The notes under the pieces: model-generated
Database searches by the model: none
The model's input: the letters and a program-made list of their open reading frames with translations, nothing else
Told to the model about the DNA's origin: nothing
Assembly: GCA_020427395.1 (NCBI GenBank)
Contig: JAGQON010000013.1
Coordinates: 1 to 64,000, forward strand
Length of the DNA stretch: 64,000 nucleotides
Reading direction: 5' to 3'
From: Phycisphaerales bacterium
GTDB lineage: Bacteria > Planctomycetota > Phycisphaerae > Phycisphaerales > UBA1924
Shown: positions 1 through 9,125 of the stretch, piece after piece
Position numbering within the stretch: position 1 is the first letter of the stretch
Layout of the letters: each line of letters begins with the position of its first letter
Program-made: the position numbers and the translations under genes

Positions 1-401
1 ATTTCGCAAACGATGAGAACGGCAACTTCTGGTCTGACTACAACGGCTTCGATCGTGACCACGACGGGCTCGGCGAGTTCGCCTACGAGCCCAAGAGCCT
101 CTTCCGCACGATGCTTGCCCGGGAGCCCAACCTGCGACTGTTCGTGCACAGCCCCGCCCAGCAGGCCATCGAGCTAACAGCACGGGCTTTCCCCGAGCTT
201 GATCCCGACCCGATGCTCACTGACCCCAAGCCGCTCGCCCTCCCTCCCCGCTTCGATCTCCCCTCTCTCGAAGCGGGGGCGGACGGCTTACGCATGGCGG
301 TGGTCTCGATCGGGCTCGTGCTGCTCAGCACAGTGGTCATGCTCAGGCTCAGCGTCGAGCGTCACATCACCCCCGCACCGGGAGAACAACGCCATGATTG
401 A
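1..401 (+). CDS. nosD: NosD, copper/N2O reductase maturation protein (C-terminal fragment)
   Basis: This is the last ~133 codons of a gene that starts before the window. The visible part begins with the NFWSDYNGFDRDHDG-like stretch typical of the end of the NosD right-handed beta-helix (CASH/NosD family). It continues through the usual SPAQQAIELTARAFPELD and L-DPKPL segments. NosD is a periplasmic protein needed to assemble the copper centre of nitrous oxide reductase. Near the end is a hydrophobic stretch (MAVVSIGLVLLSTVVML) that could anchor it in the membrane. The stop overlaps the start of the next gene (nosF), so the genes are translationally coupled. NosD identity is supported by the nosF-nosY-nosL context; nosZ would be expected upstream, outside the window. 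Confidence 0.9.
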   Translation, partial: FANDENGNFWSDYNGFDRDHDGLGEFAYEPKSLFRTMLAREPNLRLFVHSPAQQAIELTARAFPELDPDPMLTDPKPLALPPRFDLPSLEAGADGLRMAVVSIGLVLLSTVVMLRLSVERHITPAPGEQRHD

Positions 402-1314
402 AGCACGGCACATTACCAAGCAGTTCAAACGCGTGCTCGCGGTGAACGATCTAAGTTTCGACCTTGAGCCAGGCGGGTCGCTCGCCCTCTGGGGGAGCAA
501 TGGCGCGGGCAAGACCACGCTTATCCGCTGCCTGCTCGGCGTCTTCCCTTGCAAGGGCACCGTCCGCATCGACGGCATCGATGTCCGCAGGAGTGGTAAG
601 CACGCCCGCGCCCGCGTGGGCTATGTGCCCCAGGAGCTCGCGTTCCACGACGACGCGCGACTCGGATCGGCGATCCGCTTCTTCGCCGAGCTCCGCAGGG
701 TCGAGCTTATCCAGGCCGCACGCTCGCTAGAGGCCGTCGGGCTCCGCGGGCATGAATCCAAGCGCGTCCGGGATCTCTCGGGCGGCATGAAGCAGCGCCT
801 GGCGCTGGCGATCGCCATGATCGCTGACCCGCCCGTCATCGTCCTCGACGAGCCGACCTCGAACCTTGACTCGGCGGGGCGTGGCGAGGTGGTCGATACG
901 CTGCTCAAGCTCCGTGAGCAGGGCAAGACCCTGATCTTCGCTTCGCACCGCCCCGACGAGGTCATCACGCTCGCGGATCGGGTGCTCGTCATGGAACAGG
1001 GCCGGCTCGTGCAGCAGACCACGCCCGAGGCGCTCTGGCCCAGCCGATCATCCATCCGCTCGATGCGCCTGTACATCGAGCAGGGCGACGAGTACCGCGC
1101 GGCCGAGATCTTGCGCGAGGGCGGGTACGCCATCAACCATGGCAACAGCGGGCTCACCGTCGCGATCGAGCAGCACCGCAAGGCCGAGCCCATGAACCAC
1201 CTCGCCGAGCGAGGTATCGGCGTACGCGACTTTGAGCTGCTGCGCGATGTCCACGACGACGACGAACCCGAGATCGGTATCGCAACCGAACAACTCAGCG
1301 AGGTGCTGCCATGA
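394..1314 (+). CDS. nosF: NosF, ABC transporter ATP-binding protein
   Basis: This 306-residue ATPase is the energising subunit of the NosFY ABC transporter, which with NosD supports Cu-site maturation of nitrous oxide reductase. It has Walker A GSNGAGKTT (residues 34-42), signature LSGGMKQ (128-134), Walker B VIVLDEPTSNLD (148-159) and the H-loop in FASHR. The start at 394 was chosen because MIEARHITKQF is the normal ABC start and overlaps the nosD stop by a few bases; an upstream in-frame extension would read antisense-like sequence from within nosD. The stop overlaps nosY as ATGA. The ~80-residue C-terminal extension is usual for NosF-like ATPases. Confidence 0.93.
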   Translation: MIEARHITKQFKRVLAVNDLSFDLEPGGSLALWGSNGAGKTTLIRCLLGVFPCKGTVRIDGIDVRRSGKHARARVGYVPQELAFHDDARLGSAIRFFAELRRVELIQAARSLEAVGLRGHESKRVRDLSGGMKQRLALAIAMIADPPVIVLDEPTSNLDSAGRGEVVDTLLKLREQGKTLIFASHRPDEVITLADRVLVMEQGRLVQQTTPEALWPSRSSIRSMRLYIEQGDEYRAAEILREGGYAINHGNSGLTVAIEQHRKAEPMNHLAERGIGVRDFELLRDVHDDDEPEIGIATEQLSEVLP

Positions 1315-2210
1315 GCACGATCAACCTCAACGGCGCAGTGCAACAACGCGTCCGATCTGAGCGCCCTGCGGCGTGCCTCTCCTTCGCCCGCTCGATCATG
1401 CTCATCGCCCGTCGTGAGTTCCGCGATGCGCTCTCAAGCAAATGGTTCCTGCTCTACACCTTCGCGTTCACGACGCTGGCGATCGGGGTTTCATTCTTAT
1501 CGCTGGCTGGCTCGGGCGAGCACGGCTTCGCGGGGTTCGGGAAGACCGCCGCGGGGCTGCTGAACCTGATCATGCTCGTGGTCCCGCTGATGGCCCTGAC
1601 GGCGGGCGCGGGCTCCATCGCCGGGGAGCGTGAGCGCGGGACGCTGCTGTATCTGCTGGCCCAGCCACTCTCGCGCACTGAGCTGCTGCTGGGCAAGTTC
1701 GTCGGGCTGGCGATCGCGCTGATCTGTTCGCTGTGTATCGGATTCGGGCTCAGCGCCGGGCTGCTCGCGTGGCGGGCCGGCGGGGTTGGCGCGGGGGCGT
1801 TCCTGATGCTCGTTGTGTTCACCAGCGTTCTGGCGCTCTCGATGCTCTCGGTGGGCGTGCTGATCTCTGTGCAGTCTCGCAGGGCGGGCGTCGCCACGGG
1901 CATCTCGCTCTTCGTCTGGCTCGGGCTGGTGTTCCTCAGTGACCTGGGGCTCATGGCGGGGACGGTGCTTTTCAAGCTGCGTGTGCAGGAGGTATTCGCG
2001 CTGGCGATCATCAACCCGCTGCAGGCCTTCAAAATGAATGTGATCGTGAACCTCAACGCCTCGCTCGATGTGCTCGGGCCCGTGGGCATGTACGCCTCGA
2101 ATGAGTTCGGTGGCTCGCTCCCATGGCTGCTTACGAGTGTGATCACGCTCTGGTGCGTGCTCCCGCTGGCGCTGGCGATCCTGATCTTCCGCAAACGAGG
2201 AGGAATCTGA
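1311..2210 (+). CDS. nosY: NosY, ABC transporter permease
   Basis: This 299-residue integral membrane protein is the permease partner of NosF. After a ~30-residue cytoplasmic leader come about six hydrophobic segments, with the ABC-2/NosY-type motif GERERGTLLYLLAQPLSRTELLLGKF between the second and third. The start overlaps the nosF stop (ATGA), and the last base of its stop is the first base of the nosL start. The order D-F-Y-L is the standard nos accessory order. The transported substrate of NosFY is not settled in general; a sulfur compound or energy input for NosD are the usual proposals. Confidence 0.92.
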   Translation: MSTINLNGAVQQRVRSERPAACLSFARSIMLIARREFRDALSSKWFLLYTFAFTTLAIGVSFLSLAGSGEHGFAGFGKTAAGLLNLIMLVVPLMALTAGAGSIAGERERGTLLYLLAQPLSRTELLLGKFVGLAIALICSLCIGFGLSAGLLAWRAGGVGAGAFLMLVVFTSVLALSMLSVGVLISVQSRRAGVATGISLFVWLGLVFLSDLGLMAGTVLFKLRVQEVFALAIINPLQAFKMNVIVNLNASLDVLGPVGMYASNEFGGSLPWLLTSVITLWCVLPLALAILIFRKRGGI

Positions 2211-2665
2211 TGAACAAGTTCTCACTGTCAATGCTCGTGGCGTGGCTCATGATGCTCGGCGGGTGCGGCGAGGCCGACCCCGACGCGCCACCCCAGATCC
2301 TGCTGGGCGACTCGGTCTGTGCGGAGTGCGGCATGATCGTCAGCGACGAGCGATTCGGCACCGCCACCATCATCGAGGGTGAGCGTGGTTCGCAAGCCCT
2401 GATCTTCGACGACTTCAACTGCCAGAAGAAGTTCGAGCTCAAGCACCCGCAGCTCGGCGTCATTACCCGCTGGTCACGCGATTACAACACGCTCGGGTGG
2501 TTCCGCACCAGCGATGGGTATCTCGTCCAATCGCACCGGATCCGCTCGCCGATGGCCTCAAGGGTTGCGGGCTTCGCTGCTCGTGAGGACGCGACCGCGT
2601 TGGCGCACGCGCTGCTAGGCGTGATCATCACCTACGAATCGTACGACCCGTCTGGCGAGCCGTAA
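2210..2665 (+). CDS. nosL: NosL, copper-binding lipoprotein of N2O reductase maturation
   Basis: NosL (151 residues) is an outer/periplasmic-facing lipoprotein that delivers Cu(I) to nitrous oxide reductase. The sequence shows a lipoprotein signal with lipobox LGGC (Cys19) and the conserved CAECGM motif (37-42) followed by IVSDERFG, the hallmark of the NosL family. The start at 2210 was chosen because an AGGAGG-like ribosome site sits just upstream and the ATG overlaps the nosY stop by one base. Length and motif match family members. It ends the nos part of the locus. Confidence 0.93.
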   Translation: MNKFSLSMLVAWLMMLGGCGEADPDAPPQILLGDSVCAECGMIVSDERFGTATIIEGERGSQALIFDDFNCQKKFELKHPQLGVITRWSRDYNTLGWFRTSDGYLVQSHRIRSPMASRVAGFAAREDATALAHALLGVIITYESYDPSGEP

Positions 2666-2731
2666 ATCCGGATCAACGCGCAACGATCATCCACTATCGG
2701 GATAGGCAGCGGATATGCGGTACCATACACC

Positions 2732-3400
2732 ATGAACACAACACCAACACGACGCAGCACTTCATCGGTATCCGCACGTACAACCACCGCTTGTCTGGTG
2801 GCATGTCAGATCGCACTCGCATGCGGGCTGGTCGCCTGCGACGACGCGGCGGTCCAGGAACAGCAGATCGAGAAGGGCATCGAGAGTATCCCCGCGGCGG
2901 AACAGGCAACCGAATCCACCATTCAGCCCACCGCCGAGCCTACAGGCGAGCAGCCCGCTCAGACGGATACGCCCGCATCGAGCGATCCACGCTTCCCGTG
3001 GGCCGCGCCTGAGGGGTGGGTGCTCGATGAGACCCCGCGCCAGATGCGTATCGCGACTTACATGACCCCAACGGAAAGCGGCCAGCAGGAGATCGCGGTC
3101 ACCCGATTCGCCGGACGAGTCGGGGGCGAGCTTGCGAACATCAACCGCTGGCGCGGGCAGATGGGGCTTGCCCCGATCAGCGAGTCCCAGCTCGATGACA
3201 ACATCGAGCGGTTCACGGCCGAGGGCTTCGATGGGTACCAGCTCCGCATCGAGTCCGCCCAGGGTGTGATGCTGGCTGCGGCGGTGTACGACGGATCGAT
3301 CGACCAGACCTGGTTCGTGCGTGCAACGCTCCCCAACATCAGCATCGCCGACCAGATCGAAGCGGGCGTCTTCGGCATGGCCCGCTCCATCGCTCGATAG
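2732..3400 (+). CDS. Putative lipoprotein of unknown function next to ccsBA
   Basis: This is a 222-residue exported protein with a long basic N-terminus, a hydrophobic stretch and a lipobox-like LVAC (Cys36). A low-complexity Glu/Thr/Pro-rich linker (about 40-85) leads to a compact C-terminal domain that begins FPWAAPEGWV. The domain shows no motif I can name. It ends 11 bases before ccsBA and 67 bases after nosL, so it probably belongs to the same transcription unit. A role at the cell envelope linked to cytochrome c or N2O reductase maturation is inferred from position only. Confidence 0.75.
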   Translation: MNTTPTRRSTSSVSARTTTACLVACQIALACGLVACDDAAVQEQQIEKGIESIPAAEQATESTIQPTAEPTGEQPAQTDTPASSDPRFPWAAPEGWVLDETPRQMRIATYMTPTESGQQEIAVTRFAGRVGGELANINRWRGQMGLAPISESQLDDNIERFTAEGFDGYQLRIESAQGVMLAAAVYDGSIDQTWFVRATLPNISIADQIEAGVFGMARSIAR

Positions 3401-3411
3401 GACCTGTTCAT

Positions 3412-6312
3412 TTGATTCTCAAGCGAATCATCAAGGCACAGGCCTCACTCAAGCTCACGGTGCTGCTGCTTTCGCTCGCGATGATCCTGATCTTCGTGGG
3501 CACGCTCGCACAGACCCGGCTCGGGGTGTGGCAGGCGGTCGATACCTACTTCCGATCGTGGGTGGCGTTCATCGATTTCGGCTTGATCGCTGGCGGTGAG
3601 CCGCGCGGGGCGGGCATCCCTTTCCCGGGGGGGCTCTCGATCGCGGGCGTGATGATCGTCAATCTCGTGGCGGCCCACATCGTCCGTTTCAAGGCGACCC
3701 GCAAGCGGATCGGCATCCTCGTGCTGCACGCGGGGCTGATCATGCTGCTGCTCGGCGAGTTCGTGACGGGGTACTTCGCGAATGAGGGGCTCATGACCAT
3801 CGACGAGGGGCAGAGCAGCTCGTACCTTGAGGACATCCGCGAAGTGGAGATCGCGATCATCGATCCGAGCCATCAAGACCATGATCGGGTTGTCTCGATC
3901 CCGATGCGCATGATCGTCGCCGCTTCCCGAACGCAGCAACCGATCCATGATGAGCTCATGCCGTTCTCGATCCGGATTGATGAATGGATGCCCAACGCGC
4001 AGCTCTTCCGCATCGACTCGCCCCATCTGGCAACCAACGGCATCGGCCTTGAGGCGCGGGCCCAGGCAGCCCCTCAGGTCTCGGGCGTTGAGGGCGGCAA
4101 GACCGATGCGCCCGCCAGCTATGTCACCCTTTTCGATGGCAATGAACCCATCGGGACCTGGCTGCTCTCGTCGCAGCTCACCGATCTCCAGCGGGTTGAT
4201 CGCGACGACAAGGCGTACGGGATCGCCATGCGGTACACCCGCACCTATCTGCCTTATGAACTGAGCCTGATTGATTTCAGCCACGACACTTTCACCGGCA
4301 CCTCGATCGCCAAGAACTTCTCCAGTGATGTCCGCATTACCGACCCGGCGCGGGGCACCGATCGGGAGGTGCGCATCTGGATGAATAATCCTCTGCGATA
4401 CGGCGGGCGGACCTTCTATCAGGCGTCCTACAAGCCCGACGGGAGCGGCACGGTCCTGCAGGTCGTCCGAAATCCCGGCTGGCTCATGCCGTACCTCTCT
4501 TGCATCCTTGTGACGCTGGGCATGACCTGGCACTTTCTCCAGTCGATCACGGCGTTCCTGCGCCGGCGAATGCGTGAGGGTCCTGTTGCATTCGGTGCCG
4601 CGCCGGCGCCGAGGTCGCGCGTTGATTGTGCGCTGCCCATCGCCGCGGGATGCCTCGGCGTGCTCATCGCGTTCAGCGGATTGCTCCGCCCGATCCCCGC
4701 GAGCGACCTCGACACGAGCGGGTTTGCTCGCCTGCCGGTCTCCTCGGGCGGTCGCATCAAACCCATGGACACGGCCGCGCGTTCGATGCTGATGGTTGCC
4801 GGGGGGAAACAGAGCGTGGCGTCCGAGGAAGGCGAGGTGAGCGCCGTCCGGTTCCTGATCGATCTGATCGCCAAACCCGAGAACATCACGGGCATCCCGC
4901 TAGTGCGCGTGGATCATCCCGATGTGCTGGCGCTGCTCGGGAAGGACCCAACCCAGAGCGGGCGCGTTCCGCTGGGCGACCTTGAGCCGCATTGGGAGCA
5001 GATCACGCTGCAGGCCAGACACGCGTTGACGCAGGAACCGAAGCAACGCGACGGATTCCAACGTGCGATCATTCAGCTTCACGACCGGGTGAATCGGGTG
5101 CTCGAGCACGCGCAGATGCGTCAGCCCTACTCGATCCCCCCGCTCTCCGCAGATGGGCAATGGCAGCCGTTCCACGACGCCTTCCTCGATGACCAGGTCG
5201 CTGACACCCCGCATCCCAGCGTCGCGTACCTGACCACGATCATGAACGCGGCCAGCCGGGCTGACTCCGAGGGGTTCGCACAAGGGGTCGATTCGTATAC
5301 CCGCCTGCTCGAAGACTCCATGCCCGGTGTCATGCGCGAGATGCACATCGAGGTATGGTTCAACCGTGCCTCGCTCTTCACAGGCACCACCGCGGTCTAT
5401 CTCGCGGCCTTCATCAGCGTGTGCGCCTCGTTCATCGCCCGTGCGGGCTCGGGTGGCTCTGCGCTGGCGGAACGGCTCCGCTCGGTCTCATGGGTGCTGC
5501 TTGTCGTCGCTGTGCTGGTTCACACGCTGGCGATCGGGCTGCGGATCTACCTGCAGGATCGCCCACCGGTGACGAACCTGTACTCTTCGGCGATCTTCGT
5601 CGGCTGGGCCGCGGCGCTGGCCGGGATCTTCATCGAGCGTCTATTCCGTCTGGGCATCGCGGTGCTCGGCTCCGCGACGATCGGCGCGGCGACGCTGATC
5701 ATCGCGCACAACCTCGGAAACGACGGCGACACGATGCAGATGATGCAGGCGGTGCTCGACAGTAACTTCTGGCTGGCGACGCATGTCATCGCCATCACCC
5801 TCGGCTATTCCGCGACATTCCTCGCGGGCGCCATCGCCATGATCTACCTCCTCGCCCGGGCGATCACGCGGAAAATGACACCCGAGCGGGAGCGCTCGAT
5901 GATCCGCATGGTCTACGGCGTGGCGTGCTTCGCGCTGCTGCTGAGCTTTGTGGGCACCGTTTTAGGGGGCATCTGGGCGGATCAGTCGTGGGGCCGGTTC
6001 TGGGGGTGGGATCCCAAGGAGAACGGCGCGGCGCTGGTGGTGCTGATCAACGCGATCATCCTGCATGCGCGATGGGGCGGGATGATCCGAGCAAAGGGTA
6101 TCGCGATCCTGGCCGTCGCCGGGAACATTGTCACGGTTTGGAGCTGGTTCGGCACCAACATGCTCGGCGTGGGGCTTCATGCCTACGGCTTCATGGACTC
6201 CGCCTCGATGTGGCTGGCGATCTTTGTGGGCACGCAGCTGCTCGTGATGTCCACAGGTTTCATTCCCAAGCAACGGACGGGCTTATCCAGATCAATCGAG
6301 TCTTTGCAATAG
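3412..6312 (+). CDS. ccsBA: Fused ResB-CcsA cytochrome c synthase (CcsBA), system II
   Basis: This 966-residue membrane protein attaches heme to CxxCH apocytochromes on the periplasmic side. The N-terminal half is ResB/CcsB-like: membrane segments around residues 18-40 and 70-120, a large periplasmic domain, and the MNNPLRYGGRTFYQASY motif before another membrane segment. The C-terminal half is CcsA-like, with many membrane helices and the tryptophan-rich heme-handling motif WGRFWGWDPKENGA near residue 860. Fusion of the two halves is known from epsilonproteobacteria and Bacteroidetes. The start is TTG at 3412, 11 bases after the previous stop; the following residues (LKRIIKAQASLKLTVLLLS) form the expected first helix. 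It is followed three bases later by nrfH, its likely client. Confidence 0.93.
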   Translation: MILKRIIKAQASLKLTVLLLSLAMILIFVGTLAQTRLGVWQAVDTYFRSWVAFIDFGLIAGGEPRGAGIPFPGGLSIAGVMIVNLVAAHIVRFKATRKRIGILVLHAGLIMLLLGEFVTGYFANEGLMTIDEGQSSSYLEDIREVEIAIIDPSHQDHDRVVSIPMRMIVAASRTQQPIHDELMPFSIRIDEWMPNAQLFRIDSPHLATNGIGLEARAQAAPQVSGVEGGKTDAPASYVTLFDGNEPIGTWLLSSQLTDLQRVDRDDKAYGIAMRYTRTYLPYELSLIDFSHDTFTGTSIAKNFSSDVRITDPARGTDREVRIWMNNPLRYGGRTFYQASYKPDGSGTVLQVVRNPGWLMPYLSCILVTLGMTWHFLQSITAFLRRRMREGPVAFGAAPAPRSRVDCALPIAAGCLGVLIAFSGLLRPIPASDLDTSGFARLPVSSGGRIKPMDTAARSMLMVAGGKQSVASEEGEVSAVRFLIDLIAKPENITGIPLVRVDHPDVLALLGKDPTQSGRVPLGDLEPHWEQITLQARHALTQEPKQRDGFQRAIIQLHDRVNRVLEHAQMRQPYSIPPLSADGQWQPFHDAFLDDQVADTPHPSVAYLTTIMNAASRADSEGFAQGVDSYTRLLEDSMPGVMREMHIEVWFNRASLFTGTTAVYLAAFISVCASFIARAGSGGSALAERLRSVSWVLLVVAVLVHTLAIGLRIYLQDRPPVTNLYSSAIFVGWAAALAGIFIERLFRLGIAVLGSATIGAATLIIAHNLGNDGDTMQMMQAVLDSNFWLATHVIAITLGYSATFLAGAIAMIYLLARAITRKMTPERERSMIRMVYGVACFALLLSFVGTVLGGIWADQSWGRFWGWDPKENGAALVVLINAIILHARWGGMIRAKGIAILAVAGNIVTVWSWFGTNMLGVGLHAYGFMDSASMWLAIFVGTQLLVMSTGFIPKQRTGLSRSIESLQ

Positions 6313-6315
6313 ATC

Positions 6316-6876
6316 ATGCAACCTGATAGTGTGAAAAGAGCGATGCCAGATATACAGCGTGAACACATCGAGCAAACGCAAGACAAGCCAAATCGTCGTG
6401 GAATGATCTCTGCGCTCGCGTTGCTCTGCGCCATCGCCTTCGGGATTCTCGGCGGGCTCGGCGCATTCACATTCGGCTACGGTGAGGGCACGGCGTATCT
6501 GAAGAACGACCCCGCATCGTGCGCTAACTGCCATGTGATGCAGACGCATTACGATACATGGACCAAATCCAGCCACCACGGAGTCGCGACCTGCAACGAC
6601 TGCCACCTCCCTCACGACTTCGCGGGCAAGTGGCTGACCAAGGGCGACAACGGGTTCTTCCATTCCCTCGCGTTCACGACGGGCAACTTCCACGACCCAA
6701 TCCAGATCAAAGACCGTAATCGAGAGGTCACCCAGCACGCGTGCCTCTACTGCCACGGGGACTTCGTCGATCACATGCTCCCGGCCGAGCCCAACGGTGA
6801 GATGCAGTACTGCGTCCACTGCCACGGCGATGTCGGCCACGCCGGGCGAGAGTCCGGCTATGGAGAGCGAGACTGA
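6316..6876 (+). CDS. nrfH: NrfH, tetraheme quinol dehydrogenase subunit of nitrite reductase
   Basis: NrfH passes electrons from menaquinol to NrfA in nitrite ammonification. The 186-residue protein has one membrane anchor (about 31-52) and four CxxCH heme sites at 69-73, 93-97, 143-147 and 166-170. The first reads CANCHVM, matching the NapC/NirT/NrfH family first heme with the nearby methionine. An in-frame ATG at 6343 is a possible shorter start; both precede the anchor. It is packed between ccsBA (3 bp) and nrfA, so co-transcription is very likely. Confidence 0.94.
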   Translation: MQPDSVKRAMPDIQREHIEQTQDKPNRRGMISALALLCAIAFGILGGLGAFTFGYGEGTAYLKNDPASCANCHVMQTHYDTWTKSSHHGVATCNDCHLPHDFAGKWLTKGDNGFFHSLAFTTGNFHDPIQIKDRNREVTQHACLYCHGDFVDHMLPAEPNGEMQYCVHCHGDVGHAGRESGYGERD

Positions 6877-6908
6877 ACATGCCAACTATCCCGAGAGAGG
6901 ATTCACTG

Positions 6909-8606
6909 ATGTCAACCCGCAATCAGACCACGAAGCTGGCCAACCGGCTCCCGAAAACACGATCCGGTCGCGCGATGCTGCTGGTCTTGGTTTTCATCGT
7001 CGCGGTGGTCGCGACGCTGGTTGTGACTTGGGTGCTCGTGACCATGTTCGGGCACAAGCAGGAGGCACGCACGCCGTTCGTCCGTGTGACCGAGGTCACG
7101 GAGATCAGCACCGACCCTGAGCCGTGGGGTCAGAACTGGCCCCGTCAGTTCGAGGGGTGGAAGGCCACCGCGGGCGATAAGTTTTACGGCGGCTCCAGCG
7201 CCCTGACGCAGAGCAAGCTGGAAACCTATCCATGGCTCAAACGTCTCTACGCCGGCTACGCGTTCAGCATCGACTACCGCGAGGCGCGAGGGCATGCGTA
7301 CATGCTCTACGACCAGGGCGTGACTGAGCGGGTCACAAAGAAGTCACAGGCGGGCGCGTGCATCCACTGCCACGCATCCAATACGGTGATGTACCGGCGT
7401 ATCGGCATGGAGGCGATGGGTCAGGAGGTCACCGAGGAGTCTCTCGCTGCCGACTTCAACATGCCCGCGGTGATCCGTGGCTTTGAGGAAGTCAGCCGGA
7501 TGCCGTACGATGAGGTCCTCGCGCTGGTCATGCAATCGCCCGATGGTACGCCGGGAGAGAATGTCCCTGCTGTACCCCAGGCACCGATCGGTGGATTCAC
7601 CGGCGAGTTCAAGGGCCAGCCCGTTCCCGAGGATCACCCCGCAAAGACGGGCGGTGAGGCCCACCCGGTCTCATGCATCGATTGTCACAACCCGGACACC
7701 ATGTCGATCCGGGTCACACGCCCCGGCTTCGTGCTCGGCATGGCCGCGCTCGCGGAGAGCGACGAGCCGACCCCGCACCTCCCCAGTGTCGAGAAGTGGC
7801 GCCGCGGCGATCGAGCCGAGCCCTACGATCCCAATAAGGACGGAACACGCCAGGAGATGCGTTCGTTCGTCTGCGGGCAGTGCCATGTCGAGTACTACTG
7901 CGCCAACAAGGACACGCTCGAGTTCCCCTGGGGCAAGGGGCTTAAGATGGAGCAGCTTGAGGCCCACTGGGATGCGAAGAAGTTCCCCGACGGCTCGGAG
8001 TTTTACGACTACACCCACGGCGAGACCGGGGCCAAGGTGCTCAAAGTCCAGCACCCTGAGTTCGAGCTCTGGAGCCAAGGCATCCACGCCCGCAGCGGTG
8101 TGAGCTGTGCCGACTGCCATATGCCCTATCAGCGCGAGGGCGCGATGAAAGTCTCGAGCCACAATGTCCAGAGCCCGCTCGCGAACATCAACAACGCCTG
8201 CCAACAGTGCCACAACGACGACGAGATCACACTCAGAGAGAAGGTGGAGACGATCCAGGGCCGCACAATGGCGCACATGGACCGGGCCGCGATCGCGATG
8301 ACGGATATGCTCGACGCGATCCTCGAGGCCAAGGCCGCAGGAGCGAGCGAAGAGCAGCTCAAGCCGATCTATGACCTGCAGCGCAAGGCGATGTGGCGTT
8401 TGGACTACATCAGCAGCGAGAACTCCCGCGGGTTCCATGCCGATCAGGAAGCCATGCGCATCCTCGGCGAATCGATCGACTACAGCCGCCAAGCCCAGGC
8501 CCTCGCGGTGAGGCTGCGTGCACCGCAGGCACCCAGCACAGACAGCATTCCGACCGAACCTGTCCAGGGCGTCACACCGACGGAGAAGGCCCCTATCGAC
8601 GGCTGA
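6909..8606 (+). CDS. nrfA: NrfA, pentaheme ammonia-forming nitrite reductase
   Basis: NrfA reduces nitrite to ammonium with six electrons in the periplasm. The 565-residue protein has an N-terminal membrane segment (about 22-46) and five heme sites: CIHCH 151-155, CIDCH 256-260, CGQCHVEYY 322-330, CADCHMP 400-406 and CQQCH 431-435. The third carries the catalytic Tyr neighbourhood, and HPEFELWSQGIHARSG precedes the fourth, as in the family. The heme-1 position, normally CxxCK in enterobacterial NrfA, is CxxCH here, as in Campylobacter. I chose the ATG at 6909 because GAGAGG lies about 8 bases upstream; an ATG at 6879 is an alternative adding 10 residues. The N-terminal helix could be an uncleaved anchor. 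Confidence 0.94.
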   Translation: MSTRNQTTKLANRLPKTRSGRAMLLVLVFIVAVVATLVVTWVLVTMFGHKQEARTPFVRVTEVTEISTDPEPWGQNWPRQFEGWKATAGDKFYGGSSALTQSKLETYPWLKRLYAGYAFSIDYREARGHAYMLYDQGVTERVTKKSQAGACIHCHASNTVMYRRIGMEAMGQEVTEESLAADFNMPAVIRGFEEVSRMPYDEVLALVMQSPDGTPGENVPAVPQAPIGGFTGEFKGQPVPEDHPAKTGGEAHPVSCIDCHNPDTMSIRVTRPGFVLGMAALAESDEPTPHLPSVEKWRRGDRAEPYDPNKDGTRQEMRSFVCGQCHVEYYCANKDTLEFPWGKGLKMEQLEAHWDAKKFPDGSEFYDYTHGETGAKVLKVQHPEFELWSQGIHARSGVSCADCHMPYQREGAMKVSSHNVQSPLANINNACQQCHNDDEITLREKVETIQGRTMAHMDRAAIAMTDMLDAILEAKAAGASEEQLKPIYDLQRKAMWRLDYISSENSRGFHADQEAMRILGESIDYSRQAQALAVRLRAPQAPSTDSIPTEPVQGVTPTEKAPIDG

Positions 8607-8747: not shown

Positions 8748-9125
8748 ATGCGTCTGTTCATCACCAACCTGCTTATTGCGACCATGCTCGTGATGCCGAT
8801 GCATGCGTGGGCTTCACACATGCGGTGCAGGTGTGATGATCAGCTGGTTTCGCAGCCTGAGGCAGATGCCACAGAATGCTGCTGCCCACCTGCGGCTGAT
8901 CAGGGAGACCGATCCGATGAGCCCGAGCCACGCCCAATGCCGTGCGATCAGCAGGACTGCCCCTCGAGCTGCTGCAGCATGACCCTCGTCAGCGCCTTCG
9001 TGCTCCCCATGGGTACCTCGCTCGTCACGATCGCATCCGAGCACCGGGCACAGGCGCAGATCGAAGAGTCGCCGTGCGCCTCCCCGCACCTGCTGCGTCT
9101 GAAGCGCCCTCCCAAGTCGGCATGA
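8748..9125 (+). CDS. Small Cys-rich exported protein, unknown function
   Basis: This 125-residue protein has a signal peptide (about 1-22, ending MHAWA/S) and ten cysteines in clusters: CRC, ECCCPP, PCDQQDCPSSCC and a final SPC. A second hydrophobic stretch (LVSAFVLPMGTSLV) follows the third cluster. It resembles the small Cys/His proteins often found beside metal-efflux genes in planctomycetes, but I cannot assign a family. It ends 60 bases before the adaptor gene at 9186 and may be the first gene of that operon. Metal binding or disulfide chemistry at the membrane is inference. Confidence 0.7.
   Translation: MRLFITNLLIATMLVMPMHAWASHMRCRCDDQLVSQPEADATECCCPPAADQGDRSDEPEPRPMPCDQQDCPSSCCSMTLVSAFVLPMGTSLVTIASEHRAQAQIEESPCASPHLLRLKRPPKSA

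Follow-up and report, generated by a model that had tools for sequence, protein, structure and literature searches.

The 64,000-nucleotide window analysed here begins at base 1 of contig JAGQON010000013.1 (C44, 97,079 bases) of a Phycisphaerales bacterium (GCA_020427395.1), whose genome is a bin of 203 contigs and 3.45 Mb (91.8% complete, 3.71% contamination). Its first eight genes (positions 3–8606, all on the + strand) probably form the distal part of a composite respiratory cluster, in which a clade II N2O-reductase (nos) module and a nitrite-ammonification (nrf) module work together; we put the probability of this reading at about 0.68. The nos module is taken to comprise the genes for an Rrf2 regulator and a dihaem cytochrome c, followed by nosZ, nosB, nosD, nosF, nosY and nosL, and the nrf module the genes for a lipoprotein, CcsBA, NrfH and NrfA. 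UBA1910 and UBA3190, used for comparison throughout, are named metagenome-assembled genomes (MAGs) of the same genus as the source genome. The genes present in the window are:

3..401, + strand: nosD, 3' end, the contig beginning within the gene (TIGR04247, E 2e-21, profile positions 301–375 of 377)
394..1314, + strand: nosF, ABC ATPase (PF00005, E 6e-30; in the same place in UBA3190 and UBA1910, 84–88% identity)
1311..2210, + strand: nosY, ABC-2 permease (PF12679, E 4e-33; 90% identity in both UBA1910 and UBA3190)
2210..2665, + strand: nosL, lipoprotein of the Cu-chaperone family (PF05573, 28.2 bits, cut-off 24)
2732..3400, + strand: lipoprotein of the nrf module, with no assigned family and a PsbP/LpqN/DcrB/Mog1-like fold at residues ~80–222 (fold matches; co-located with ccsBA-nrfHA in relatives)
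3412..6312, + strand: ccsBA, fused System II cytochrome c synthase (PF01578 and PF05140)
6316..6876, + strand: nrfH, tetrahaem menaquinol dehydrogenase subunit (TIGR03153, 162 bits, cut-off 134.2)
6903..8606, + strand: nrfA, pentahaem nitrite reductase of the CXXCH type (PF02335, E 1e-113; matches to NrfA structures in the PDB; alignment)

Because base 1 of the window is the end of the contig, nosD is truncated by the assembly and not by the window. Adjacent genes either overlap or are separated by fewer than 30 bp; only nosL and the lipoprotein gene are further apart (66 bp). The same order recurs in UBA1910 and UBA3190, so it is not due to chance. The reading frame of nrfA is open from an ATG at 6879 and has an alternative in-frame ATG at 6909; a terminator was sought by folding the stretch 3' of nrfA, where no clear stem and T-run emerged. 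The original prediction, made from the sequence alone, had listed these eight genes in this order and in one direction, exactly as found; its heading of N2O reductase maturation suits the window, nosZ itself being on another contig of the bin, and the planctomycete host that it named agrees with the nearest relatives, which are Phycisphaerales MAGs.

The bin contains two nosZ genes, on contigs C129 and C135. C129 carries a dihaem cytochrome c gene, nosZ (514–2502) and nosB, which is cut by the contig end at base 1; an Rrf2-family gene (3624–4088) and a RIC-type gene (4037–4906, with ScdA_N and hemerythrin domains in its product) point away from these three. In both UBA1910 and UBA3190 the genes for Rrf2, cytochrome c, nosZ, nosB, nosD, nosF, nosY, nosL, the lipoprotein, CcsBA, NrfH and NrfA are contiguous, and a gap of 1.2 kb separates the positions to which base 1 of C129 and the beginning of C44 map. 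Judged from this mapping and from composition, the missing part of the window's nos block is the one on C129, and we treat the source genome as resolved and linked. The RIC-type gene, which adjoins rrf2 on C129, belongs to the wider nos cluster, given its place directly after nosL in several relatives. C135 holds a second nosZ locus (L003:1-10172) in the other common arrangement, with the nrf module, including nrfA, upstream of nosZ, and its genes show 73–78% DNA identity to those of the window. It probably comes from a contaminating relative, because the other 12 same-genus genomes with nosZ have only one such gene and because its tetranucleotide composition is further off (distance from C44 and C129 0.216–0.221). 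A true paralogue is the less likely alternative, on the same two grounds. Between its nrf module and nosZ, C135 also has a globin-like gene (PF01152 just below the cut-off), for which no match was found in the other loci examined at E 1e-6.

It is very improbable that nosZ on C129 and the nos–nrf block on C44 derive from different organisms and were merely binned together. True, nosZ, nrfA and the cbb3 gene ccoN are each present twice in the bin, at the contamination given above, but in both named relatives a single contiguous locus, with the same gap of ~1.2 kb, matches C129 and C44, the tetranucleotide distance between these two contigs (0.167) equals that within each, and C135 is the likelier foreign contig. 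The two ccoN genes, which differ from each other, lie at contig ends (L105 and L106: the start of C120 and the end of C129); they, too, hint at a mixture of two related organisms in the bin.

The product of nosZ on C129 scores 818.1 bits with the Sec-type model TIGR04246 (cut-off 625) and only 365.9 with the twin-arginine translocation (TAT) model TIGR04244 (cut-off 625), and its N-terminus, MSHATRHATPMLLAAITAIAAPATIACSQ, has no RR motif. We classify it on its sequence as a Sec-type, clade II NosZ, which answers the question, raised with the original prediction, of whether a nosZ lies upstream and what signal peptide it has. On C129 and C135, as in relatives, nosZ is followed by a membrane open reading frame resembling nosB, a gene associated with clade II. 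NrfA exhibits five CxxCH haem motifs, of which the first is CIHCH instead of CXXCK, and CxxCH occupies this position in all 22 aligned sequences that cover haem 1 (one of the 23 is truncated). The three catalytic residues of NrfA structures, R, Y and H, are present as assigned on the alignment. K381, Q383 and H384 are invariant in the alignment, i.e. the calcium-type K-x-Q-H and not x-x-R-H, and a His is found between haems 3 and 4. On account of its CIHCH haem 1 and K-x-Q-H we place it in the CXXCH clade, as defined in passages of PMC10716430. NrfH passes its equivalog model TIGR03153, as listed above, while CcsBA combines the ResB and CcsA domains in one protein, with PF05140 and PF01578 above their cut-offs, and scores below the cut-off of the NCBIfam CcsB model (123.3 vs 187.6).

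The linkage of nos and nrf genes is not a one-off. Among 163 genomes of the family, nosZ is present in 96 and nrfA in 81. We divided NrfA into two types: type 1 (36 genomes), as in the window, has a stretch, ~40 residues in length, between haems 1 and 2, which type 2 (46 genomes) lacks; one genome, G090, carries both. With a distance of at most 20 kb as the criterion, 15 of the 25 genomes with type-1 nrfA and nosZ are linked, in 11 genera and in four orientations (nrf downstream in 3, upstream in 5, divergent in 4, convergent in 3), compared to ~0.3 of 25 expected by plain arithmetic (20 kb either side, 3.5 Mb). Only 1 of 34 genomes with type-2 nrfA and nosZ is linked, i.e. only the longer NrfA type is commonly found near nos. 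In the remaining type-1 genomes the two genes are 1.4 Mb apart on the same contig (G104) or on different contigs (9 genomes, including the source genome, taken above to be linked, and at least two, G122 and G140, with the genes at contig ends). The flanks of 57 more distant NosZ loci (L031–L087), examined over more than 15 kb in 32 of them, contain an NrfA-like gene only in L047, which belongs to a family member (same contig as G162). Retention of both gene sets side by side in several arrangements suggests that the two reactions work together.

Linkage has also outlived replacement of the nrf module. In the NosZ tree G064, G063, G090, G061, G153, G049 and G071 form one side (support 100/100), yet G064 and G090 have an NrfA that clusters with the window's group and a CcsBA that clusters with the one of G146, a member of this group. 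Approximately unbiased (AU) tests, from which the long branch G049 and G071 with its type-2 NrfA were dropped, rejected trees with the remaining five rows forced together, both for NrfA (p-AU 4e-55) and for CcsBA (8e-86, in a tree that includes one long, oddly composed row, G104); keeping G049 in the NrfA test gave the same result (p 8e-73). The tested group was chosen from the NosZ tree after a first NrfA tree had been seen. G063 and G064, NosZ sisters of one genus with the same divergent arrangement, nevertheless have nrf modules of different lineages. Since the NrfA and CcsBA trees conflict with the NosZ grouping, the adjacency must have outlived the exchange. On these trees the modules move INDEPENDENTLY: one module is exchanged, in one direction or the other, and the neighbourhood kept. 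A count of label changes on the NosZ tree gave 8 for five arrangement labels; we prefer the AU tests because 7 of the 19 branches are open.

Upstream of the cytochrome c gene we find AAGTGGAGTTGACTGTCCACTT in UBA1910 and UBA3190 and TAGTGGATTTGACTATCCATTT in the source genome. The dyad AGTGGA-N8-TCCACT overlaps a TTGACT/TTGACC -35 element, with TAnnnT 16–17 bases further (read by eye). With up to 2 mismatches it occurs at 13 of 37 nos promoters and, among 18 nrf promoters, at 3 (those of G146, G162 and G064), compared to 1.07% of random 270-base stretches, although this count is partly circular, the motif having first been read off these same promoters; earlier dyad scans were less specific. 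In six whole genomes, with at most one mismatch, 11 of 30 sites are at a nos, rrf2 or nrf promoter. UBA1910, UBA3190 and G139 each have just one perfect dyad, which lies at the nos promoter; the single perfect copy in G146 and in G064 lies elsewhere, and the source genome has none. It is where the sites fall, and not their genome-wide frequency, that makes the dyad notable. The linked Rrf2 protein passes the Rrf2 superfamily model (101.6 vs 73.3) and scores 49.5 with the NsrR model NF008240, for which the cut-off is 182; the dyad likewise differs from the NsrR consensus given in passages of PMC1274295, gATGyAT-N5-ATrCATc. We propose this protein as the candidate binder of the dyad. A TAnnnT element is also seen a few bases 5' of the lipoprotein ATG, in the window (2700–2732) and in the nrf promoters of many genomes, and its position suggests that transcription of the nrf module may be near-leaderless.

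NirK was found in none of the 163 family genomes and NirS in none of 21 genomes of the genus, and the three COX1-family genes of the source genome (one aa3 and two cbb3 oxidases) include no NO reductase. The pair of enzymes that would mark a denitrifier, a NO-forming nitrite reductase and a NO reductase, was not found in this 91.8% complete genome. The search of the source genome for Nar and Nap yielded only a weak molybdopterin-oxidoreductase match, in a NuoG-like protein; with no Nar or Nap found, the organism would depend on external nitrite. We read it as a putative non-denitrifying N2O reducer and nitrite ammonifier, and as a likely aerobe or microaerophile also able to use external nitrite and N2O. 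The original prediction had taken the same view and suggested a search for nir and nor genes; with clade II nosZ present and denitrification genes not found, neither a TAT-type clade I nosZ with complete denitrification genes nor a lack of nosZ speaks against it. Its further claim, that the pairing of nosZ with nrfA characterises clade II reducers, holds only in part: according to passages of PMC10716430 the pairing is common, but it is not a defining mark.

In the proposed composite cluster, electrons would pass from menaquinol via NrfH to NrfA, reducing nitrite to ammonium, and from the dihaem cytochrome to NosZ, reducing N2O, external or leaked from nitrite and NO chemistry, to N2. CcsBA would attach haem to the cytochromes of both modules, NosDFYL would supply NosZ with copper and sulfur, and RIC would repair nitrosative damage, while the signal sensed by an Rrf2 repressor at the nos promoter may be N-oxide or Fe-S stress, switching the block on. 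The benefit of keeping the modules together, and presumably co-expressing them, would be that N2O is removed while ammonification starts. In passages of PMC10653820, N2O delayed nitrite ammonification after oxic–anoxic shifts and affected nrfA transcription in Bacillus sp. DNRA2 with NosZ blocked; by analogy, the gene linkage fits such a coupling, without being proof of it. A stronger version is tentative, and we would sooner doubt it than adopt it: the cluster may be one selected unit, in which one Rrf2-type repressor switches on both modules through an AGTGGA-N8-TCCACT operator that they share, and NosZ clears the N2O that would otherwise block the onset of NrfA respiration, the modules having been joined or re-joined several times, even after replacement by a foreign copy.

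Perhaps the modules are merely neighbours, both drawing on c-type haem and on quinol-pool electrons and being gained as respiratory islands via a shared transfer or insertion hot spot, with no physiological coupling? The module exchange is plain, ccsBA could serve the cytochromes of both modules, and several genomes keep them apart; nonetheless we consider passive linkage unlikely, for four orientations in 11 genera require repeated rearrangement without separation, linkage of type-2 nrfA is very rare within this family, and the dyad is common to both promoters in G146. Slightly less doubtful, though still rather unlikely, is a cluster for nitrosative stress, in which NrfA would be mainly a NO or hydroxylamine scavenger, Rrf2 would sense NO, RIC would repair Fe-S damage and NosZ would remove N2O made from NO. 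The adjacency of the Rrf2 and RIC genes, the presence of dnrN/ytfE in Rrf2-type NsrR regulons elsewhere (passages of PMC1274295), and the failure to find a nitrate reductase to supply nitrite, or a NO reductase, all agree with it. However, a complete nos module and an NrfHA accompanied by a dedicated cytochrome c synthase look respiratory, and neither the Rrf2 score nor the dyad resembles NsrR. Several observations also weigh against the composite cluster that we prefer: about six type-1 genomes, e.g. G104, appear truly unlinked; the dyad is present at only a minority of the nos and nrf promoters and is hardly enriched genome-wide (a reversed-motif control gave 25 sites vs 30); the gap between nosL and the lipoprotein gene may hold an internal promoter (TACCAT a few bases 5' of the ATG), so that the modules may be transcribed apart; and the absences of pathways are provisional, coming from an incomplete, fragmented bin.

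For the lipoprotein (2732–3400), even a threshold of E 1 gave no match in Pfam. A structure model built with five sequences has a mean predicted local distance difference test (pLDDT) score of 70, with a confident domain at residues 80–222 (pLDDT ~90) that matches PsbP, LpqN, Mog1 and DcrB (Foldseek, best E 9.6e-5). Structural comparison (VIA matches) gave Z 7.6–9.9 over 104–136 residues: 9.9 with LpqN (128 residues, root-mean-square deviation 3.2), 9.9 with Mog1 and 9.5 with PsbP. The model thus predicts a PsbP/Mog1-like fold, and says nothing certain on function; the gene accompanies ccsBA-nrfHA in most relatives examined. On the other side of nrfA, before an HlyD/ABC efflux set, positions 8748–9125 encode a small protein that is rich in Cys, looks exported and may bind metal; it, too, matches no Pfam family.

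Co-occurrence of nosZ and nrfA, also in Phycisphaerae (passages of PMC9083452), and Rrf2 genes beside clade II nos (passages of PMC6264515) are already known. In the open-licence literature searched we found no account of a shared dyad, of modules being exchanged in place, or of a recurrent physical nos–nrf linkage. As to why so many ammonifiers carry N2O reductase, the physiology of one Bacillus, DNRA2, suggested, in passages of PMC10653820, a protective role of NosZ against N2O when ammonification begins. A linkage that is recurrent, rearranged and re-assembled in a widespread uncultured group provides independent genetic support for joint action and names a regulator and an operator as candidates for joint control. 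The linked loci mark organisms that could retain nitrogen as ammonium while removing the greenhouse gas N2O.

Among known systems, Wolinella has an nrfHA-ccsA arrangement. The nos part resembles the clade II clusters of Bacillus azotoformans and Geobacillus, given in passages of PMC3475470 as nosC-nosZ-ORF-nosDYF: a cytochrome c gene precedes nosZ, an open reading frame follows it, maturation genes come next, and no nosR is seen here either. The Rrf2 regulator and c-type cytochrome beside nosZDFYL are likewise found on the metagenome scaffolds of PMC6264515, where, however, the passages describe no nrf genes or operator. Bacillus sp. DNRA2 (PMC10653820) and a Phycisphaerae MAG with narH, nrfAH and nosZ (PMC9083452) combine both activities in one organism, but DNRA2 is a Bacillus and the passages on the two describe no gene linkage. 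In B. azotoformans, too, a nitrite reductase adjoins haem-attachment machinery (nrfAH-ccm, System I), but nrfHA is on its own contig beside the ccm genes (passages of PMC3475470), whereas the window's cluster continues from nos into lipoprotein-ccsBA-nrfHA. From these nrfHA-ccm and nrfHA-ccsA systems it is set apart by the System II CcsBA fusion, the PsbP-like lipoprotein, the CXXCH-type NrfA and the attachment to nos.

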